From NCBI RefSeq assembly GCF_002243515.1, contig NZ_CP022657.1, positions 2,781,001-2,845,000 on the forward strand: a stretch of 64,000 bases of DNA. Reading direction: 5' to 3'. Within the stretch, counting starts at the first letter, position 1. Each line of letters opens with the position of its first letter. Below are positions 3,162-11,178 of this stretch, piece by piece. The notes under the pieces were generated by a model. It did not search any database. It saw nothing but the letters and a program-made list of their open reading frames with translations, and was not told the DNA's origin. The position numbers were made by a program, and so were the translations under genes. Source of the DNA: Tumebacillus algifaecis (lineage in GTDB: Bacteria > Bacillota > Bacilli > Tumebacillales > Tumebacillaceae).

Positions 3162-3189
3162 AAAACACCCCGTCAGGAGACGGAGTGTT
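3162..3189 (-). terminator. terminator at end of YheC/YheD cluster
   Basis: An 11-bp stem with one mismatch (AACACcCCGTC/GACGGaGTGTT, loop AGGA) includes the stop of the last YheC/D gene. On the minus strand TTTTG follows. Confidence 0.7.
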
Positions 3190-4507
3190 CGGTAAGAAAT
3201 TCACAGTAATGCAATGTGCGCAGCAACGACTTGCCCCGGATGAACGGCTCGTCAAACTTCATCGGCTTGGCGTTGGCCTCAAAAAAATACAGCGTGCCGT
3301 CTCCAGAGACCCCGATGTCCATCGACATTTCGCCGATGTGACCGGTCTCACGGTTTTGCCCTTCGATCGTCGAGGCGATCACAAGCGCCATGCGCCGCAC
3401 TTGTTCTGTGAGCTGTTTGGCCTGCTCTTTCCCAAAGACAGTCTGTAAAACCAAATCGGCTTTTTCAATCCGGCCCCCGTTCGGAACGTGCGTGGTGATC
3501 CCATCCGCATCCGCGATCCTCGCCCCCATTCCGGTCATGCTCCATTGTCCCTGTCGATCCTTTTGCATGAGCAGTCGCAAGTCAAACTGACGACCTCGAT
3601 ACATGGCGAGGCGGATGCCCTGTTGCAGCAGATAGGGGCGCCCTCTGCTTCCTTGAAAGGCCAGCGCTACTGCCTCTTGCCTCGAGGCGACTTGGGTGTG
3701 AGTGCGCTTACCGCTACGTTGCATCGTCACAACGTACCCTTTTCCTTCAGCTCGGATCTGGATGATCCCGTCTCCCGCCTTGCCGTCGGCAGGTTTGACG
3801 TACAGCAGTTGGTGGCGGCGCAGCATCTGTCCGATCTGCGCCTCTTTGCGCAACGATTCTGTAGCGGGTAGGTATTTCGCCGTCTCCCGATCACTTCGCA
3901 ACCATTCGTGGATTTCCGCTTTGTCAAAAAAGCGCGGGTTGAACAGCGGGATGTTCTGCTCGCTCAGCCATTTCTTGACGCGGGTCACTTCCGGCAAGCT
4001 TTCCGCTGCCCGGTCGGGGACACGGTTGTAGACGACGCTTGGTAGGGGTAGCACAACCCGCTTCCACGCGGTCGCTCCCTTGCCTGTGTACACCCAACAC
4101 TCCATGCGCTCGGAGGATCTGATCCCTTCCGGTGTAAAGACGACCACCGTATGACCGAGGCGTTTGCCCGCTTGGATGATCGCTTTAAAATTGGCTTTGT
4201 TGCCGCGAAACGAGGCGCTGCGATTGCGTTTCACCGTCAAGATCCCGATGATCGGGCCGAACACGCTGCCGTGGCGATTTTTCTGCTTGCGGATCGGCAC
4301 CAGCAGATCGCTTGCATTCCGAGCCTTTCGCCAACTCGGTTCGACGGGCAGGCGAAGGGATGGGCCGTTTTTGCTCATTGGCACGTTCCAAGCACGCCGA
4401 TGCGGCAATTGCACTTCGCGACGTGCCATCTCAGAACTTGCAAGGTACCACCGATTTTCGCCACCGTCAGCGCGCACTCCGATGTGGATCAAGTCTCTTC
4501 GGTTCAT
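3173..4507 (-). CDS. YheC/YheD family ATP-grasp protein (copy 1)
   Basis: A 444-residue member of the YheC/YheD family, associated in Bacillus with the endospore coat. The second half is an ATP-grasp fold: 'YVKPADGKAGDGI' forms the nucleotide-binding lysine and glycine loop, 'LLQQGI' and 'FDLRLLMQKD' are conserved strands, and 'FFEANAKPMKF' carries the E-x-N metal-binding pair near the C-terminus. 'VVYNRVPDR' and 'FNPRFFDKAEIHEWL' are family signatures shared with the three neighbours. ATP-grasp enzymes join carboxylates to amines, but the substrate here is unknown. The start overlaps the upstream gene by 41 bases and has GAGGAGGAGG ahead, which suggests translational coupling. Confidence 0.85.
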   Translation of the reverse strand: MNRRDLIHIGVRADGGENRWYLASSEMARREVQLPHRRAWNVPMSKNGPSLRLPVEPSWRKARNASDLLVPIRKQKNRHGSVFGPIIGILTVKRNRSASFRGNKANFKAIIQAGKRLGHTVVVFTPEGIRSSERMECWVYTGKGATAWKRVVLPLPSVVYNRVPDRAAESLPEVTRVKKWLSEQNIPLFNPRFFDKAEIHEWLRSDRETAKYLPATESLRKEAQIGQMLRRHQLLYVKPADGKAGDGIIQIRAEGKGYVVTMQRSGKRTHTQVASRQEAVALAFQGSRGRPYLLQQGIRLAMYRGRQFDLRLLMQKDRQGQWSMTGMGARIADADGITTHVPNGGRIEKADLVLQTVFGKEQAKQLTEQVRRMALVIASTIEGQNRETGHIGEMSMDIGVSGDGTLYFFEANAKPMKFDEPFIRGKSLLRTLHYCEFLTEHSVS

Positions 4508-5870
4508 CCACGCCTCCTCCTCTGTTCAGCGGGAATTTCGAAAGGTACGCTCCATATTCGAGCACCATGCGGGCAGACCGTTTTCCCGCTTCGATCAACT
4601 CCGTGTGGCGGAAGACGGCCCGCCCTGGCTTGGCGTTCGTTTCGAACACCCAGACCTGCCCGTCTTTGTCGAGCGCCACATCGAGACCAAACTCGCCCGA
4701 CTCCCCTTTTAACAACCCTTGGATCACATCGGCGACGCGAATCGAGACCTCGACGATGCGAGCTTTCATCTGCTCGGCGCGCTCTCCGTACCAAGCGCGT
4801 AGCACTTTGTCGCCCGCTACCACCCTGCCACCGTTGTGGACATGTGTGGTCACCGAGGTTGATCCTGCAACTTTGGCGCCGATGCCGGCCGCTTCCCATG
4901 CCCCGACCGAATTTTTGTGCAGATGTACGCGAAAATCCGTTTTGCGGCCTTGGTATTCCATCATTCGAATCCCCTGCTGCATCAGATAGGTGCTTTTTGG
5001 ATGACTGCGCCTTCTGACGAACTGCAATACCGCTTCGGCATTGACAAAACGCGTCGTGACATGGTTCTTTTCCCGTTTGTAGCGAACGAGATAGCCTTGC
5101 TTGTCGCGCTCCACCTGATAGATGCCCATCCCTAAGCTGCCTCCGGTCGGCTTCAGATAGATTAATTGGTGCTTTAGACAAAATCGTTGCAGGCCATCTG
5201 CTGTACGCATGCGCTCAGTCTCCGGAATGTAGGTGGATGATCTCTTGTCGCCCGACAGCCAGCGATACATTTCGTTTTTGTTCAGAAAGCGCTCGTTAAA
5301 CATCGGGACTCCCATCCGCTCCAAGCGCTCTTTGCACCGTTTCACGTCGGGCAGCGTCTCCGCCCGGCGGTGTGGCACGCGATTGTAGACCACTTCCGGC
5401 AGCGGAAAGCGCCCGAACGTCCACGTCTCGCGCCCCGGCGGTCCGGTCATCGTCACCCCGCTCACCGTGCCTGCGGAAAAGTTGACATCGGCCGCATTGA
5501 AGACATAGCAGAGCACATTCAGTTCTCGAGAGGCGCGAACGAAGTCACCAAGCAGCGAGGTACGCCCGCCGATCGGCTTTTTGATGTCGCGTCTGACCCC
5601 CGTGGTCATGATGCCTATCACCGGACCGATACGCAGGCCTTCTGCTTGAGAATACACGATTTGTCCGGCTACTCCCTGTATCTGCAAATCAAGCCTGCCC
5701 CCCGCCCAGCGCAGGCTCGTCGTTTGCTCCTGTTGTGCGCTTTGTTTGATTTCTGCGATCCCCTGCAGTTTACCGCAGACTAACGGTACGCTCGCGCCAT
5801 CACGCAAACCCCATGCCAGCAGCGATTTGCGAGGTGCAGTGAGGATGAGGGAAGATCCGGGTTGGTTCAC
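4467..5870 (-). CDS. YheC/YheD family ATP-grasp protein (copy 2)
   Basis: A 467-residue paralogue of its downstream neighbour. It has the N-terminal beta domain ('SSLILTAPRKSLLAWGL'), 'VVYNRVPHRRAETLPDVK', 'FNERFLNKNEMYRWL', the ATP-grasp loop 'YLKPTGGSLGMGI' and the metal-binding 'VFETNAKPGR'. The GTG start at 5870 lies behind GGGGAGGGG. It overlaps the next gene, and a strong terminator upstream (5908-5955) separates both from the amidoligase gene, so these two probably have their own promoter. A role in modifying a coat protein or peptide is inferred from family and context. Confidence 0.85.
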   Translation of the reverse strand: MNQPGSSLILTAPRKSLLAWGLRDGASVPLVCGKLQGIAEIKQSAQQEQTTSLRWAGGRLDLQIQGVAGQIVYSQAEGLRIGPVIGIMTTGVRRDIKKPIGGRTSLLGDFVRASRELNVLCYVFNAADVNFSAGTVSGVTMTGPPGRETWTFGRFPLPEVVYNRVPHRRAETLPDVKRCKERLERMGVPMFNERFLNKNEMYRWLSGDKRSSTYIPETERMRTADGLQRFCLKHQLIYLKPTGGSLGMGIYQVERDKQGYLVRYKREKNHVTTRFVNAEAVLQFVRRRSHPKSTYLMQQGIRMMEYQGRKTDFRVHLHKNSVGAWEAAGIGAKVAGSTSVTTHVHNGGRVVAGDKVLRAWYGERAEQMKARIVEVSIRVADVIQGLLKGESGEFGLDVALDKDGQVWVFETNAKPGRAVFRHTELIEAGKRSARMVLEYGAYLSKFPLNRGGGVDEPKRLDPHRSAR

Positions 5871-5907
5871 TCATACCCCTCCCCTAGGTTCAAGATTCTG
5901 TATTGTA

Positions 5908-5955
5908 TGAAACAAAAGACAGCCGGGTTCCTCCGAATGCGGAGGCCCGACTGTC
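5908..5955 (-). terminator. strong terminator after the amidoligase gene
   Basis: On the minus strand the arms GACAGtCGGG-CCTCCG and CGGAGG-aa-CCCGgCTGTC close over CATT, followed by TTTTGTTTC. The hairpin overlaps the stop codon at 5954-5956. Confidence 0.8.
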
Positions 5956-7473
5956 AAGCATTTCGGCCCCGGCGCGCGCTGACGGTCGGGCGCCTCTCCG
6001 CCGGCAGCGGCAGATTCCAAGTCTTGCGGAGGTCGGACGCTTCATTCCACGAGATGCCTTGACGTACCATTTCCGGAATGATTTGCAAGGAATTTTTGTA
6101 CTGCTTATAGGTGGAGGTAGCCTCGATTCCTCGCCAGATTCGCTCAAAATTCGATTTTAATTCCCCTTTATAAGCCCGATAAAACTGGCGTTGTCGGCTC
6201 GGTTTGGAAAAGAGATCGAGATTCAATTCGCGATAGTGCATCACAACCAGATAGGAAAGATAGATGACCGCCTCGGTGATCTCCGGCGTGACCAGAAAGG
6301 AGCCAGGTGTGCGGTATTCAAAGCCACCATGATCTTTAAAGCGAACATCGCCCAAATATCCGTACTTGCGGCGGCGTTTGACCGCCGTTTGCCCGGCTTC
6401 GATCATCATCACCGGAAAGCCGACATAGTTATCTAACGCTTTCACCAGACGTGATGAAAACGTAACATCCGAAAAATGTACATGACCGCCGATTGGAAAG
6501 CGCGTAAACGGCATGCTGCCTGCGACCCATTGCACATTTCGCGCCGTGATCGCAGCCGCCGCGCTTTGCATCGTGTGCCTGATGTTGTTCATCAACTCCC
6601 CTGGGGAGCGCGCAGGACTTGGGCGAATTTCCGCAAGCGGAAAGCGCTCACCGTCCAAGTTCAAACTGCGGTCGTCACAGCCCACGGCGCCGATGCGCGG
6701 CAGGTACTTCGAAGCCAGCACCATCTTGCCGCGCGACGAACGAAGCATAAATTCCAAGTCTGTCCCGATCACGAAAGGATTGGGATTTCTGCCGTGCTGC
6801 TCAAACGAACGCTCCTCCGACCGATCACGGGTGATGAACGCCTGCAGTGCGTCTTCAAACAGTTCGAGCAGACGGCCGTTCAATTTTGGCGACGCGGTGA
6901 CATCGAGGCAAATCGTGCGGTCCGTCGAGGTGATGCCGATGGAAACCATGCCAAAATCGAGTCCGAGCGCATGCAAGGAACGCAAAGAGAGCCGAACGGC
7001 ACGCTCCGCGTACACATCTTCATCCATCGGCACTTCCCGAAATTTTTCCTGCGAATTGGAGACGCCACCGTCCAGCCACAACGACTTGCTGTCGGCCCGA
7101 AACACCCCAGAGCCAGCAGGTCAAAAATCGGGATGCGATAATGACGCACGATTTTGACACGATTTCCGGAGTCGAGCATCACGTCCCGTGCAACATCGGG
7201 CCGCTTCTCGTAGCTTGAAGAAACCGCCGGCGAGTACACGCCGTTTTGTTTCAGGATTCTGAGCATTCGCGAGCGGTTGATCGAGTTTTCGATCGCTTGG
7301 CGAGGATTGAGCGTCCAAGCGGCCATGCGGTCGTCACCACTCATCGTCCCCCAGCGAATCATCACATCCTGGCTGGCCACCGGGTTTACACTATCAACGC
7401 CTATGCACTCTTGTACGCGCCTAAGCAATCGTTTTGCGGAGGTCTGCCCAGAATGCAACAGCACGTAACCCAT
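5954..7473 (-). pseudogene. putative COOH-NH2 ligase type 2 (amidoligase), frameshifted
   Basis: Two overlapping frames make one gene of about 506 codons. The first runs from ATG 7473 (GGAAAGGAG ahead) to 'HYRIPIFDLLALG'. The homologous continuation 'VFRADSKSLWLDGG' lies in another frame starting at 7105. Adding one G to the GGGG run at 7105-7108 (minus strand) joins them exactly. The C-terminal part contains 'VIGTDLEFML', 'VGCDDRSL', 'LAEIRPSP' and 'GGHVHFSDV', matching the phiEco32-like COOH-NH2 ligase type 2 family (glutamine-synthetase-like amide-bond formation). Its position among four YheC/D ATP-grasp genes fits a spore-coat peptide-modifying set. It may be a real mutation or a homopolymer sequencing error. 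Confidence 0.75.
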
Positions 7474-7494
7474 AGCCCTGTCTCCTTTCCGAGT

Positions 7495-8871
7495 TTATCT
7501 GAAATCTTTTTCACAGAGATAGTCCGCAAATTGTACGGGACGCTGGAAGGCGAGCAAGGCCAGATCACGCCATTCTCCCTCTTCAATATTCGGCTTTTTC
7601 CAAGGTTTCGAATTCACTTCGATCACCCAAATGTTTCCGCTCTCATCAAGCCCCAGATCAAGGCCGAGCTCGCCGATCGTGCTGTTGTTCTCCTGCTCGA
7701 TCACCTTTGGAACCGCGTCAGAAATGACGCGCAACTGACTCATGATCACACGCACTTTTTTGTCATCATACATCTCTTGGAGCAGTTTTTTGACAGCCAG
7801 CGCATCGCCTCCCGTCGAGATGTTGGAGGTGATCTGGCCTTGCTGAGCAATGCGGCAGAACATTTTGGTGCGGTTCCAATTGCCCGCCCCGTCTTTTTGC
7901 AACAGGATACGGATATCAAACGGACGGCTTTGCCAGTTTTTTAGCCGCAACGTGCGCTGGATCAAGTAGGGTCCGCTTTTCAGTCGCTTTTGAAATTTTT
8001 TGAGAAACATGGAGATCGATCCTGCGTACTCCTGCCGCAGGCTACCATTCTTTTTTTTGATCTGATAAAAAATTCGACCATCCGCTCGGCGCCTTGCTCG
8101 GATGATACCGATCCCAAGCGAACCATGTACAGGCTTGAGGTACACATCTGTGTGTTGATAGAGAAAGGGGGCCGCTTGCTCAACCGATTCGAAACGGATG
8201 GCATCAGGCACATGGGATGCTGTACGCTGATCTTTGTGCAGCCATCGATGAACTTGCCATTTATCAAAATAGCCAGGGTTGAAAAAGCGTTTTTCGAGCA
8301 ACCCCATCAAACGTTTGCGAGCATCGGACACCTCTTTTTTGTTCATGTAGGTGCGGGTGATGATCTGATCATAAACCACATCGGGCAAAGGGAAGCGTTT
8401 GGAGGTCCAGCCTGCTTTGCCTTCCACCCGATAGCCGAGCACGCTCCGATCGTTCCAGTCGATGTCCGCAATCGAAAACACATAACCGTACATGTTCAGA
8501 TGACGGGCAACCTCCAGCAGATTTTTAAACACTTGCTGCTGCTGACCCGCAAGTTGGCCATCGACCGTCTTCACGTTGGCAAGGATGCCGAACAGGTAGC
8601 CGAAGCGCAGACCTCCGGAAGTTTTATGCAAATTGAGTTTGGTCCCGGTGGGCAAATGAAGTTCAGCGATCAGTTCTTTGCTGAGCAAGGCTGTCTCTTC
8701 CTCGCCTTTGTCAGACCCGCGCAGATCGATTCGAGCTTGTTTGGCACCGAAGAACAGCTCATAAGCGCCAGGTGTGAGATTGATTTCTTTCATGACACCG
8801 CGCGGCAGGATCATCACAAGTTTGTGCGCAAGAGAAGAGGGCTCGATACGAATCGGTTTCGAACTCGCCAT
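7495..8871 (-). CDS. YheC/YheD family ATP-grasp protein (copy 3)
   Basis: A 458-residue member of the same family. It shows 'VVYDQIITRTY', 'FNPGYFDKWQVHRWL', ATP-grasp loop 'YLKPVHGSLGIGI', 'FDIRILLQKD' and metal-binding 'IEVNSKPWKKP'. The ATG is preceded by GAGGAGGG. The gene ends 21 bases before the amidoligase start, so the two are probably co-transcribed. It is clearly divergent from copies 1 and 2 outside the motifs, which suggests separate substrates rather than recent duplication. Confidence 0.85.
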   Translation of the reverse strand: MASSKPIRIEPSSLAHKLVMILPRGVMKEINLTPGAYELFFGAKQARIDLRGSDKGEEETALLSKELIAELHLPTGTKLNLHKTSGGLRFGYLFGILANVKTVDGQLAGQQQQVFKNLLEVARHLNMYGYVFSIADIDWNDRSVLGYRVEGKAGWTSKRFPLPDVVYDQIITRTYMNKKEVSDARKRLMGLLEKRFFNPGYFDKWQVHRWLHKDQRTASHVPDAIRFESVEQAAPFLYQHTDVYLKPVHGSLGIGIIRARRRADGRIFYQIKKKNGSLRQEYAGSISMFLKKFQKRLKSGPYLIQRTLRLKNWQSRPFDIRILLQKDGAGNWNRTKMFCRIAQQGQITSNISTGGDALAVKKLLQEMYDDKKVRVIMSQLRVISDAVPKVIEQENNSTIGELGLDLGLDESGNIWVIEVNSKPWKKPNIEEGEWRDLALLAFQRPVQFADYLCEKDFR

Positions 8872-8915
8872 GACCCCGTCCCTCCTCTCGTTGGAATGCC
8901 GCTTCCGTGCGTGGC

Positions 8916-10304
8916 CTAGCTGATCGTCTGCGGCTCAAAACCTGTTGTGTACTTAGCATATTCAAGATTGCGCATAAGTGACAATGCACGTACCTGCGTA
9001 GATGTCTGTTTCAGCATCTGCCGACCTGGGCGAGGATTGACTTCGATCAGATATACTTCCCCTGGCATCGTAACGGCAAAGTCGATGCCCAGTTCACCTA
9101 TCCGTCCCGCTTGCGCTTCCAGAGTTCGGCAGATCTGCAAAGCGGCTGTGTCGATCCGTTGCAGCAGCGCGCGGCGCACAGACTCGTCGCGAAATCCGTT
9201 TTGGCGGAGCAGATCTTCGGCGAGCACCGCGCTGCCCCCGGTGTGCAGATTGGTTGTGATCGACCCAGAACCGCCGATGCGGGCGACGCGGGCGGTGATC
9301 CCCCAGTTGTTTCGCCCGTCTTTTTGCACCAACCAGCGAAAATCGACCGGGCGGATGCCACGATCGGCAAGCAGATCGATGCCTTGTTGAACCAGATAAG
9401 AGCGCTTTGCACAAAAGCGTTTTTGCACAAAAACTCGCCAATTCGTCCCCGAACGCTTAAAATAGCGGTTCATCGTGCGCCCCCGTAGGGAGTATTGGAC
9501 GCGGACCCCACGTTTTTGCAAAGTCAGGCGGTAGATGCTCTTGCCTTGCGTGCCATAGCTCGGTTTGACATAGACGATGGGATGGCGAGTGAGCAGGTCT
9601 TCAATGTCTTCTGTACGATGAACAAGCCGGGTTTCCGGCAAGTAACCGCGGGTCGTTTCGCTCGCTTCCAACGTGCGGTGAACGTCCCATTTATGCCCGG
9701 TTGCTTTTGAGAAATGTCCGTAGGGCACGAGCTTCTCGATCTGCAACAGGTCTTGGCGCATGCGGTCGCGCCATCGCGGGGGCTGGCCCATGATTTTCGG
9801 CATCACCAGATCGGGCAGGGGGCGTTTGGTGCGCACCCAATGTTTCTCGCGCTGTTTGTAGACATAGCAGGTGGCGATTCCTGCTCGCCAGTTGATCTCG
9901 CCTGGCAAGAAGACGTAAAGCCCGATGCCCGCTTGGGCCGCAAGCACCATCATGTCTTGAAAAAGCGAAGTCAGTTCCCCAAACGGCTTGCCCGTTTTTT
10001 TTGATGGCAGCGCGTACAAGCCAAGAAATGGGCCGAAGCAAAGCTCACCGTTTTGCGCTTTCACCGCGATGCTCCCGAACGGCAGACAGAGCTGCTCGCG
10101 CAAAGATTGGGTCATCTGCACCTCCTGTTCATCCGTATATACCACCTGCGCAGTCGCTTTTCGGTTGCCTGCGCGCAGGGTCACTCTGTCATGGTGATCG
10201 ACAGCGGCCAAGTGTAACTGCCATGCACCGGGCAAGGTGACGACAGACTCTGTGCTGTTCGGCCAACTGGTGATCTTACAAATGCCGAGCGCTGTACCGT
10301 TCAA
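8916..10304 (-). CDS. YheC/YheD family ATP-grasp protein (copy 4)
   Basis: A 462-residue YheC/YheD-family protein. It is the most divergent of the four: 'VYVKPSYGTQGKSI' is the ATP-grasp loop, 'FDIR' of the others becomes 'VDFRWLVQKD', and the metal-binding segment is 'IEVNPRPGRQM'. The start is TTG at 10304 after GGGGAG. It lies 44 bases before copy 3 and 77 bases after the cotE stop, with a strong terminator between it and cotE, so the cluster starts here with its own promoter. I could not identify a convincing sporulation-sigma promoter in the short gap. Confidence 0.84.
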   Translation of the reverse strand: MNGTALGICKITSWPNSTESVVTLPGAWQLHLAAVDHHDRVTLRAGNRKATAQVVYTDEQEVQMTQSLREQLCLPFGSIAVKAQNGELCFGPFLGLYALPSKKTGKPFGELTSLFQDMMVLAAQAGIGLYVFLPGEINWRAGIATCYVYKQREKHWVRTKRPLPDLVMPKIMGQPPRWRDRMRQDLLQIEKLVPYGHFSKATGHKWDVHRTLEASETTRGYLPETRLVHRTEDIEDLLTRHPIVYVKPSYGTQGKSIYRLTLQKRGVRVQYSLRGRTMNRYFKRSGTNWRVFVQKRFCAKRSYLVQQGIDLLADRGIRPVDFRWLVQKDGRNNWGITARVARIGGSGSITTNLHTGGSAVLAEDLLRQNGFRDESVRRALLQRIDTAALQICRTLEAQAGRIGELGIDFAVTMPGEVYLIEVNPRPGRQMLKQTSTQVRALSLMRNLEYAKYTTGFEPQTIS

Positions 10305-10350
10305 GCGTGTCTCCCCTTTCCATTAAAAAGAAGTGGCGCGTCTTGCTTGA

Positions 10351-10383
10351 AAGAAAAAAGGCTGAGGGCAGCCCTCAGCCTTT
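10351..10383 (-). terminator. terminator of cotE
   Basis: A perfect 12-bp stem (AAAGGCTGAGGG/CCCTCAGCCTTT) with a three-base loop overlaps the cotE stop. On the minus strand it runs into TTTTTTCTT. Confidence 0.88.
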
Positions 10384-10918
10384 AATCTTCAAAATCGTCA
10401 TCGTCTTCGAAGACTTCATCTTCCATATCCTCATCATCCTTGAAGTGTGGTTGATCGACCGTGAGCACCCACACTTTTGTTTCGCCGACAATTTCGGTCG
10501 AAAGCTCCTTTTCGACACGCACCAAAATCTCGTTGCCGCTGTCAACAACCGTTGCATCCAAGCAGTTCGGCTGTTGCATCACTTTCACGCTGACTTTGAC
10601 ATGTTCTCGGGCGCAGTTCGGATCGAGTTCGCGCAGCGGGATCGTTTCCGTATAGGTAACGGTGTCTTTTGCAACCGCCGTTTCACTGTTGCCGTGGTAC
10701 GAGTACCAGACGTTCACATCAAAACGACCATGTACTTCGACGACGTCGCCGATCAACTCCGCTTCGTAGGAGTGGTTCATCACCCAGCAACCCCCGATCG
10801 TAGTCGGCCGATTCGCCGGACGAATCGTATACGTCGTCTGCGAGTATTTGCTGCCCGTTCCGCAAACCGCATTGGTGATGATCTCCCGGGCGCGGTATTC
10901 TTTGTCTGTGCGTGCCAT
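10382..10918 (-). CDS. cotE: outer spore coat morphogenetic protein CotE
   Basis: CotE is a mother-cell scaffold that recruits the outer spore coat. The 178-residue product matches the Bacillus family in length and pattern: 'YRAREIITNAVCGTGSKY', 'WVMNHSYEAE', 'DVNVWYSY', 'VMQQPNCLDA', 'EIVGETKVWVL', and an acidic C-terminal tail rich in D and E. The ATG at 10918 has GAGGAGGT eight bases ahead. It lies directly upstream of the YheC/D and amidoligase cluster, which ties that cluster to the coat. Confidence 0.95.
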   Translation of the reverse strand: MARTDKEYRAREIITNAVCGTGSKYSQTTYTIRPANRPTTIGGCWVMNHSYEAELIGDVVEVHGRFDVNVWYSYHGNSETAVAKDTVTYTETIPLRELDPNCAREHVKVSVKVMQQPNCLDATVVDSGNEILVRVEKELSTEIVGETKVWVLTVDQPHFKDDEDMEDEVFEDDDDFED

Positions 10919-11178
10919 CTAGCTACCTCCTCTTTCAATTCAGGTTGATGCAGGCCATTGGATGGCAAGACATGGTACCATTTCTATGCGTGACAAGTGC
11001 CGTTGGTGCATCTGTCACGAGTAGCGGCTGCATTGCCTGCTGGTGCGCAATTGTTTAGGTCAACTGTCCCTATATCCTATGGAGCGGGTAGGCGAAATGT
11101 GCTGGTCGAAACGCCCATCCTCTTGTTCGGCAATCCTTCCTTTCTAGGTGTATTCGCCTGCTATAAAAATCTTGACAC
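10919..11178. other. intergenic region between cotE and the CobW gene
   Basis: This divergent spacer must hold the cotE promoter (minus) and lead to the CobW promoter (plus). I see no open frame worth calling, no Zur-like palindrome and no good sigma-E or sigma-K match. 'CATAGAAAT' on the minus strand is only a partial -10 match. Confidence 0.4.

Follow-up and report, generated by a model that had tools for sequence, protein, structure and literature searches.

A 64,000-nucleotide stretch of Tumebacillus algifaecis DNA (contig NZ_CP022657.1, positions 2,781,001 to 2,845,000; hereafter the window) carries, on its reverse strand at 3173-10918, a set of six genes: four YheC/YheD-type (YheC/D) ATP-grasp genes, one gene for a COOH-NH2 ligase (the amidoligase), and cotE, which encodes a spore-coat morphogenetic scaffold. 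In the direction of transcription the order is cotE, YheC/D class 1, class 2, amidoligase gene, class 3 and class 4. Because the set is old and conserved, it probably builds an amide-linked modification during spore-coat formation. The specific reading we favour, at about even confidence, is a coat-associated pathway of several successive ATP-dependent ligations, whose product on some component of the coat would be a chain or crosslink held by amide bonds. It draws on gene content, conservation, catalytic-type residues, selection and predicted folds.

Gene content and conservation of the set

All six family matches lie far above their cut-offs, in agreement with a first-pass annotation of the DNA letters, which had placed four YheC/D genes around an amidoligase beside cotE. 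The four window YheC/Ds match PF14398 over at least 250 of its 255 positions, with 230-256 bits (curated cut-off 26.8). The open reading frame (ORF) at 5954-7105 covers PF14395 (COOH-NH2_lig) in full (positions 1-254 of 254; 321 bits, cut-off 25). The annotation was right about this domain and its ligase family, but overlooked a one-base frameshift that breaks the gene.

The grouping of amidoligase, YheC/D and cotE genes is not due to chance. Profile searches for PF14395, PF14398, CotE and SpoIVA across a phylum sample of 398 genomes detected PF14395 in 53 (one of them, G239, by a weak match of 71 positions) and SpoIVA in 336; PF14398 was matched in 118 genomes, 111 of them above its cut-off, and CotE in 52, of which 48 passed. 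Each of the 53 ligase genomes contained PF14398 (hypergeometric P = 3e-33), 31 contained CotE (P = 2e-18) and 52 contained SpoIVA (P = 8e-4; base rate 336/398), the one without it being a 61%-complete genome; these P values ignore kinship between genomes. In a scan of named genomes, the best 80 of 230 amidoligase relatives were counted as loci, some of them cut by contig ends. In 78 of the 80, a YheC/D or cotE gene lay on the ligase's own strand no more than 400 bases away from it, and such a gene was found on the opposite strand in only one. The linkage between YheC/D proteins and amidoligases that the annotation mentioned is borne out.

Same-strand arrangements within 6.5 kb (Y, YheC/D) were cotE-ligase (34/80), Y-ligase (12), cotE-Y-Y-ligase-Y-Y (11), cotE-cotE-Y-Y-Y-Y-ligase (4), Y-Y-Y-ligase (4), others (13) and ligase alone (2). 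The Tumebacillus order is shared with Alicyclobacillus-, Kyrpidia- and other Alicyclobacillaceae-type loci, some of which have one YheC/D fewer. In four Syntrophomonadaceae-type loci other genes separate the YheC/D pair from the ligase, and judged by eye they look functionally unrelated. In 43 of 81 loci, mainly of Paenibacillus and Thermoactinomycetaceae type, the amidoligase is followed on its own strand by MutS-/MutL-like genes, which were likewise named by eye; where the cotE-ligase arrangement includes a MutS-like gene, the amidoligase lies between cotE and mutS. In Tumebacillus lacus (L058:13161-16362), the amidoligase and the third YheC/D gene of the cluster are separated by a WXG100-like gene with a weak C-terminal HNH match (both sub-cutoff) and by three genes of SUKH type, as if a toxin-immunity cassette had been inserted.

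For the history of the YheC/D copies, 97 proteins were selected from a hand-picked list of 28 sources and 13 were dropped before tree building (all 12 from loci L058, L064 and L066, and one truncated L087 sequence), leaving 84 rows in a careful tree whose support values are given as pairs. Classes 1, 3 and 4 formed clades supported at 98/93, 100/97 and 87/83, the class 1 clade having long branches flagged by the tree program. Each of the three contains Tumebacillus/Alicyclobacillaceae sequences, other families of the class and clostridial rows (e.g. Peptococcaceae); families f2 and f8 are represented in all three and f3 in two. Class 2 is supported at 100/100 for Alicyclobacillaceae and moderately joined to Thermincola-type rows (91/81). 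For the Tumebacillus loci, as for L061, L062 and L069, gene place corresponds to tree class; the first two YheC/Ds of Thermincola-type loci are not resolved in the tree. Since the clades span families and reach into clostridia, the four copies are separate lineages of old standing, mostly fixed in their position within the cluster, and not recent duplicates.

The window genome holds three more YheC/D genes outside the cluster. One (L043) lies near DUF445 and YlbF-family genes, a setting reminiscent of yheABC in Bacillus subtilis. A short, divergent stray copy near a glycosyltransferase gene (L045, G000:C1:2987083-2987772) has the longest branch of the tree. A multi-copy YheC/D cluster with an adjoining YlbF-family gene (L053) falls partly within the same tree classes.

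Residues, predicted folds and selection in the two ligase families

Each of the four window YheC/Ds keeps both ATP lysines and the E-x-N motif, and those of classes 1, 3 and 4 share 24-26% identity with the class 2 protein encoded at 7495-8871, in line with the earlier description of conserved motifs in otherwise strongly divergent proteins. Across 48 hand-picked YheC/Ds aligned for structure prediction, nine charged or polar positions never vary; in the wider set of 97 proteins, K, K, Q, D and R occur without exception and the remaining four residues in 91-96. The ratio of nonsynonymous to synonymous substitution rates (dN/dS) of the four window copies is 0.13-0.21, a rough estimate with dS near 0.9-1.2.

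The YheC/D fold was modelled with AlphaFold2 for the class 2 copy, with a mean predicted confidence (pLDDT) of 93.4. Residues 90-458 of this model matched RimK (Z 22.8, root-mean-square deviation 2.9, 275 residues aligned), LysX and ArgX (Z 22.1), glutathione synthetase (20.9), TTLL11 (20.6) and TTLL6 (20.1). The predicted YheC/D fold is closest to RimK, LysX/ArgX and the tubulin glutamylases (TTLLs), solved folds that match the core at Z 20-23 but share 12-20% identity with it, and outside the matched region YheC/D adds a beta-rich N-terminal domain of roughly 90 residues. B. subtilis YheC and YheD belong to the same family (PF14398), match the full profile and keep the catalytic-type residues; unlike them, the window has four copies around an amidoligase beside cotE. 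Structural kin of both YheC/D and the amidoligase emerged through fold comparison only. By sequence, YheC/D matched MptN below the cut-off (E 7e-6, 25 bits against 350), no RimK model was among the Pfam matches at E 0.01, and a PDB search with the class 3 protein returned two chance-like matches to unrelated molecules (E 0.06 and 0.51).

For the amidoligase, 35 hand-picked relatives were aligned for structure prediction, and the homologue from Tumebacillus avium gave a model with a pLDDT of 91.4. Its residues 229-490 matched YbdK-type ligase (Z 17.3), Dop (15.9), plant glutamate-cysteine ligase (GCL; 15.8) and PafA (15.7), and residues 3-221 matched the RimK and ArgX folds (Z 15.8). The protein is predicted to combine, by fusion, a YbdK/GCL/PafA-like domain with a degenerate RimK-like domain that carries no annotation. 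It shares a full-length domain match and invariant catalytic-domain residues with the PF14395 COOH-NH2 ligases (phiEco32-like type 2), from which this N-terminal domain, and the frameshift in the window, set it apart. YbdK, GCL and PafA/Dop are the closest solved folds of the C domain (Z 14-17), but identity is 9-16% and the cluster has no room for a Pup-like gene. Twelve C-domain residues that never vary among the 35 relatives were checked, and the window protein keeps each of them. The profile match, the GCL/YbdK-type predicted fold and these residues uphold its earlier placement in an amide-bond ligase family.

The N domain received no label in Pfam and NCBIfam searches. Residues 157-227 have a weak match to "ribosomal protein S6 glutaminyl transferase", a phage family (E 2e-6 over the protein as a whole, with no single stretch passing), a profile comparison between amidoligase and YheC/D aligned the last ATP-grasp segment alone, weakly (probability 58), and a PDB sequence search with the amidoligase profile gave one chance-like match (E 0.63). 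Among the 35 relatives no charged residue of this domain is conserved at 90% or more; N57, R167 and D175 reach 83-89%, and in a smaller set (n = 16) one Asn and a few others are invariant or nearly so. The domain is probably a non-catalytic ATP-grasp relic. Amidoligases of Syntrophomonadaceae type (L009, L013, L019 and L123) have long C-terminal tails rich in Ser, Arg and Asn, which are absent in Tumebacillus.

In the window, the N-terminal part of the amidoligase, about 118 codons ahead of the shift, lies in ORF 6880-7473, and the remainder, including the catalytic domain, is in another frame (ORF 5954-7105). The intervening stretch is one base shorter than in four relatives, and nearby codons differ too. 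Family relatives encode an amidoligase of about 510-517 amino acids in a single frame; in six other family genomes searched the frame is open (515-563 amino acids). Two congeneric Tumebacillus amidoligases, one of them from T. avium, are 92% identical. A programmed frameshift was rejected because these congeners use one frame. Compared with two congeners, the part ahead of the shift has a dN/dS of 0.14-0.15 and the part behind it 0.07-0.09, with 0.09-0.12 for the catalytic domain; the last two estimates are rough, dS being around 1. Both halves bear the mark of purifying selection, which points to selection until very recently, or to an assembly error.

CotE, promoter box and transcription units

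The window CotE has 15 Asp or Glu among its last 25 residues, and the dN/dS of cotE is 0.05-0.08 against two congeners. CotE tails are acidic in nearly all proteins examined, more weakly so in the first of the tandem clostridial copies. Such tandem CotE-family genes (L071, a Thermincola ferriacetica metagenome-assembled genome, 3098-4400; PF10628 E 2e-31 and 8e-25) head the clostridial YheC/D-amidoligase cluster in L071 and also in L073, L074 and L075, in contrast to a 2012 survey that reported no CotE in clostridia (PMC3533761).

A CACC-N16-CATA box lies 90 bases ahead of the window cotE and resembles a sigma-K site. It is the single exact match in the 64-kb window, where about one is expected by chance, so that the window box alone means little. 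Across genomes, the box was found before 30 of 63 cotE genes and was absent before 33, against a mean of 0.25 and a largest count of 3 in shuffles; the pattern had been picked after viewing 12 upstream regions, most of them among the 63 tested. Matches to sigma-70-type promoters numbered 7 against 4.2 expected (standard deviation 2.0). Terminator-like hairpins after cotE and after the amidoligase gene make three transcription units in the cluster likely (Table 1), predicted to be cotE alone, class 1 with class 2 and the amidoligase gene, and class 3 with class 4; the second hairpin was absent from the terminator scan and is supported by its folding energy.

Table 1. Genes and signals of the six-gene set, in window coordinates
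Feature	Position	Strand	Evidence
sigma-K-like box CACC-N16-CATA	10985..11008	-	upstream of cotE
cotE, spore-coat morphogenetic scaffold	10382..10918	-	PF10628 E 1.9e-61, 207 bits against cut-off 25
terminator-like hairpin after cotE	10357..10383	-	-26 kcal/mol, z -5.7
YheC/D ATP-grasp class 1, first after cotE	8916..10304	-	PF14398 E 3e-68
YheC/D ATP-grasp class 2	7495..8871	-	PF14398 E 2.8e-72
amidoligase gene, frameshifted	5954..7473	-	PF14395 E 4e-96 in ORF 5954-7105
terminator-like hairpin after amidoligase gene	5918..5955	-	-28.6 kcal/mol, z -5.0
YheC/D ATP-grasp class 3	4467..5870	-	PF14398 E 4.5e-76
YheC/D ATP-grasp class 4, 41-base overlap with class 3 gene	3173..4507	-	PF14398 E 1e-71

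In B. subtilis, yheC and yheD belong to the sigma-E regulon and are upregulated by SpoIIID (PMC517825), and YheC is catalogued as a coat protein of unknown function (PMC7352945). YheD forms rings and then a shell encasing the spore, interacts strongly with itself, and was described in 2021 as still unknown in function (PMC7911427). The pathway of the window probably has its site in the mother cell.

What the set may build

RimK, LysX/ArgX and TTLLs attach amino acids, in many cases glutamate, to the acidic tails of S6, LysW and tubulin, respectively. In the pathway we favour, four non-redundant YheC/Ds (RimK/LysX/TTLL-type ATP-grasp enzymes) and a GCL/PafA-type ligase would each activate a carboxylate, which the YheC/D or the amidoligase would join to an amine, so that some component of the coat would come to carry a crosslink or short chain made through amide bonds. 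The analogy with RimK, LysX/ArgX and TTLLs makes acidic protein tails the first acceptors to consider; CotE as the acceptor is only a guess. The degenerate ATP-grasp domain ahead of the amidoligase would probably dock a substrate or partner. Operonic ligases are said to catalyse successive ligations in many cases (PMC4431377). Enzyme activity, step order, acceptor and timing in T. algifaecis are what we infer here. From the first-pass suggestion of a pathway that crosslinks or tags coat components, the conserved unit with cotE, the ligase families and the tie to sporulation stand, and the crosslinking or tagging of coat proteins stays a proposal.

Several findings weigh against this pathway or narrow it. 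CotE was not detected by profile in 22 of the 53 ligase genomes, and acidic CotE tails also occur in genomes without a YheC/D match (G200/L139 and G131/L149), so that tail acidity does not discriminate. When B. subtilis YheD was set against morphogenetic coat proteins in a two-hybrid assay, it showed self-interaction only (PMC7911427). Taken together, these three results mean that cotE may not simply be assumed to be the target, and they lead us to favour successive ligations without committing to an acceptor; the CotE tail, being equally acidic where YheC/D is missing, is not marked out by this feature as a specific acceptor. In 34 of the 80 loci the ligase stands by cotE with no YheC/D within 6.5 kb, and the B. 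subtilis control genome has YheC/D and no PF14395 match. In the tree, no class 2 counterpart is resolved for f2, f3 and f8 beyond the Alicyclobacillaceae and Thermincola-like rows, the third gene of Alicyclobacillus loci (L063, L065 and L068) belongs to class 4, a mismatch of place and class, and the class 1 clade takes in two stray copies of the window genome. The three stray copies of that genome lack one acidic residue, hence not every YheC/D member need be active. A shared fold is not proof of shared chemistry, and no report of enzymatic activity of any YheC/D was found in open-licence PubMed Central (PMC) papers.

Instead of modifying a coat protein, the ligases could make a small soluble or cell-surface peptide or polymer that ends in the spore, a possibility we regard as real, though rather doubtful. 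Linked ligases of such superfamilies make teichuronopeptide-, capsule- and cofactor-type products (PMC4431377), a protein acceptor was not identified, and 20 of the 80 loci, some cut by contig ends, have YheC/D and ligase without cotE within 6.5 kb. However, cotE lies within that distance on the same strand in 58 of 80, and the closest folds are those of the protein-tail ligases RimK, LysX/ArgX and TTLLs. The rings, shell and strong self-interaction of B. subtilis YheD (PMC7911427) would also suit mainly structural, self-assembling coat proteins with vestigial catalysis; this appears quite unlikely given nine catalytic-type residues identical in 48/48 proteins (91-97 of 97 in the wider set) and the low dN/dS of the window copies (0.13-0.21).

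A graspetide-type cluster, in which ATP-grasp enzymes cyclise a precursor of a ribosomally synthesized and post-translationally modified peptide, is very unlikely, even though the ligases PsnB and MdnB/C are among the Foldseek/VIA structure matches: intergenic gaps of 21-83 bases leave no room for the usual precursor gene, and several old paralogs would be atypical. No precursor gene was found between the ligase genes, elsewhere in the genome and overlapping positions not having been searched. Scarcely credible is the view that only the frameshift is special and that the cluster is decaying in this T. algifaecis strain. The one-base difference and the changed codons nearby would fit it, but dN/dS is 0.07-0.15 on both sides of the shift (0.09-0.12 in the catalytic domain) and the remaining cluster ORFs are intact, making a very recent mutation or an assembly error likelier.

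A narrower form of the successive-ligation pathway, which we hold unlikely without dismissing it, would make the set a bacterial counterpart of tubulin-tail glutamylation, with ligases writing a defined amino-acid chain onto acidic tails of coat scaffolds such as CotE. The four YheC/D classes and the PafA/GCL-like ligase would then act as initiating, extending and capping ligases, and the pseudo-ATP-grasp domain would steer the amidoligase. If true, the tail chain would govern how the coat is layered in a deeply branching group of spore formers.

The Pfam description of PF14395 reportedly lists YheC/D and CotE among the family's neighbours already and proposes a modification of spore coat or wall; a 2009 paper is reportedly the source of the amidoligase-YheC/D linkage. 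The cluster is a further member of this known arrangement. In searches of open-licence PMC papers we found no mention of a degenerate ATP-grasp domain fused to the amidoligase, the deep YheC/D lineages, the cotE box or the predicted closeness of YheC/D to RimK, LysX/ArgX and tubulin glutamylases, and no functional test of YheC/D or amidoligase. YheC/Ds are coat-associated proteins, and an old, active-looking ligase set tied to an amidoligase and cotE makes their function testable. Amide-linked residues on coat proteins, if found, would reveal a new protein modification pathway in spore assembly.

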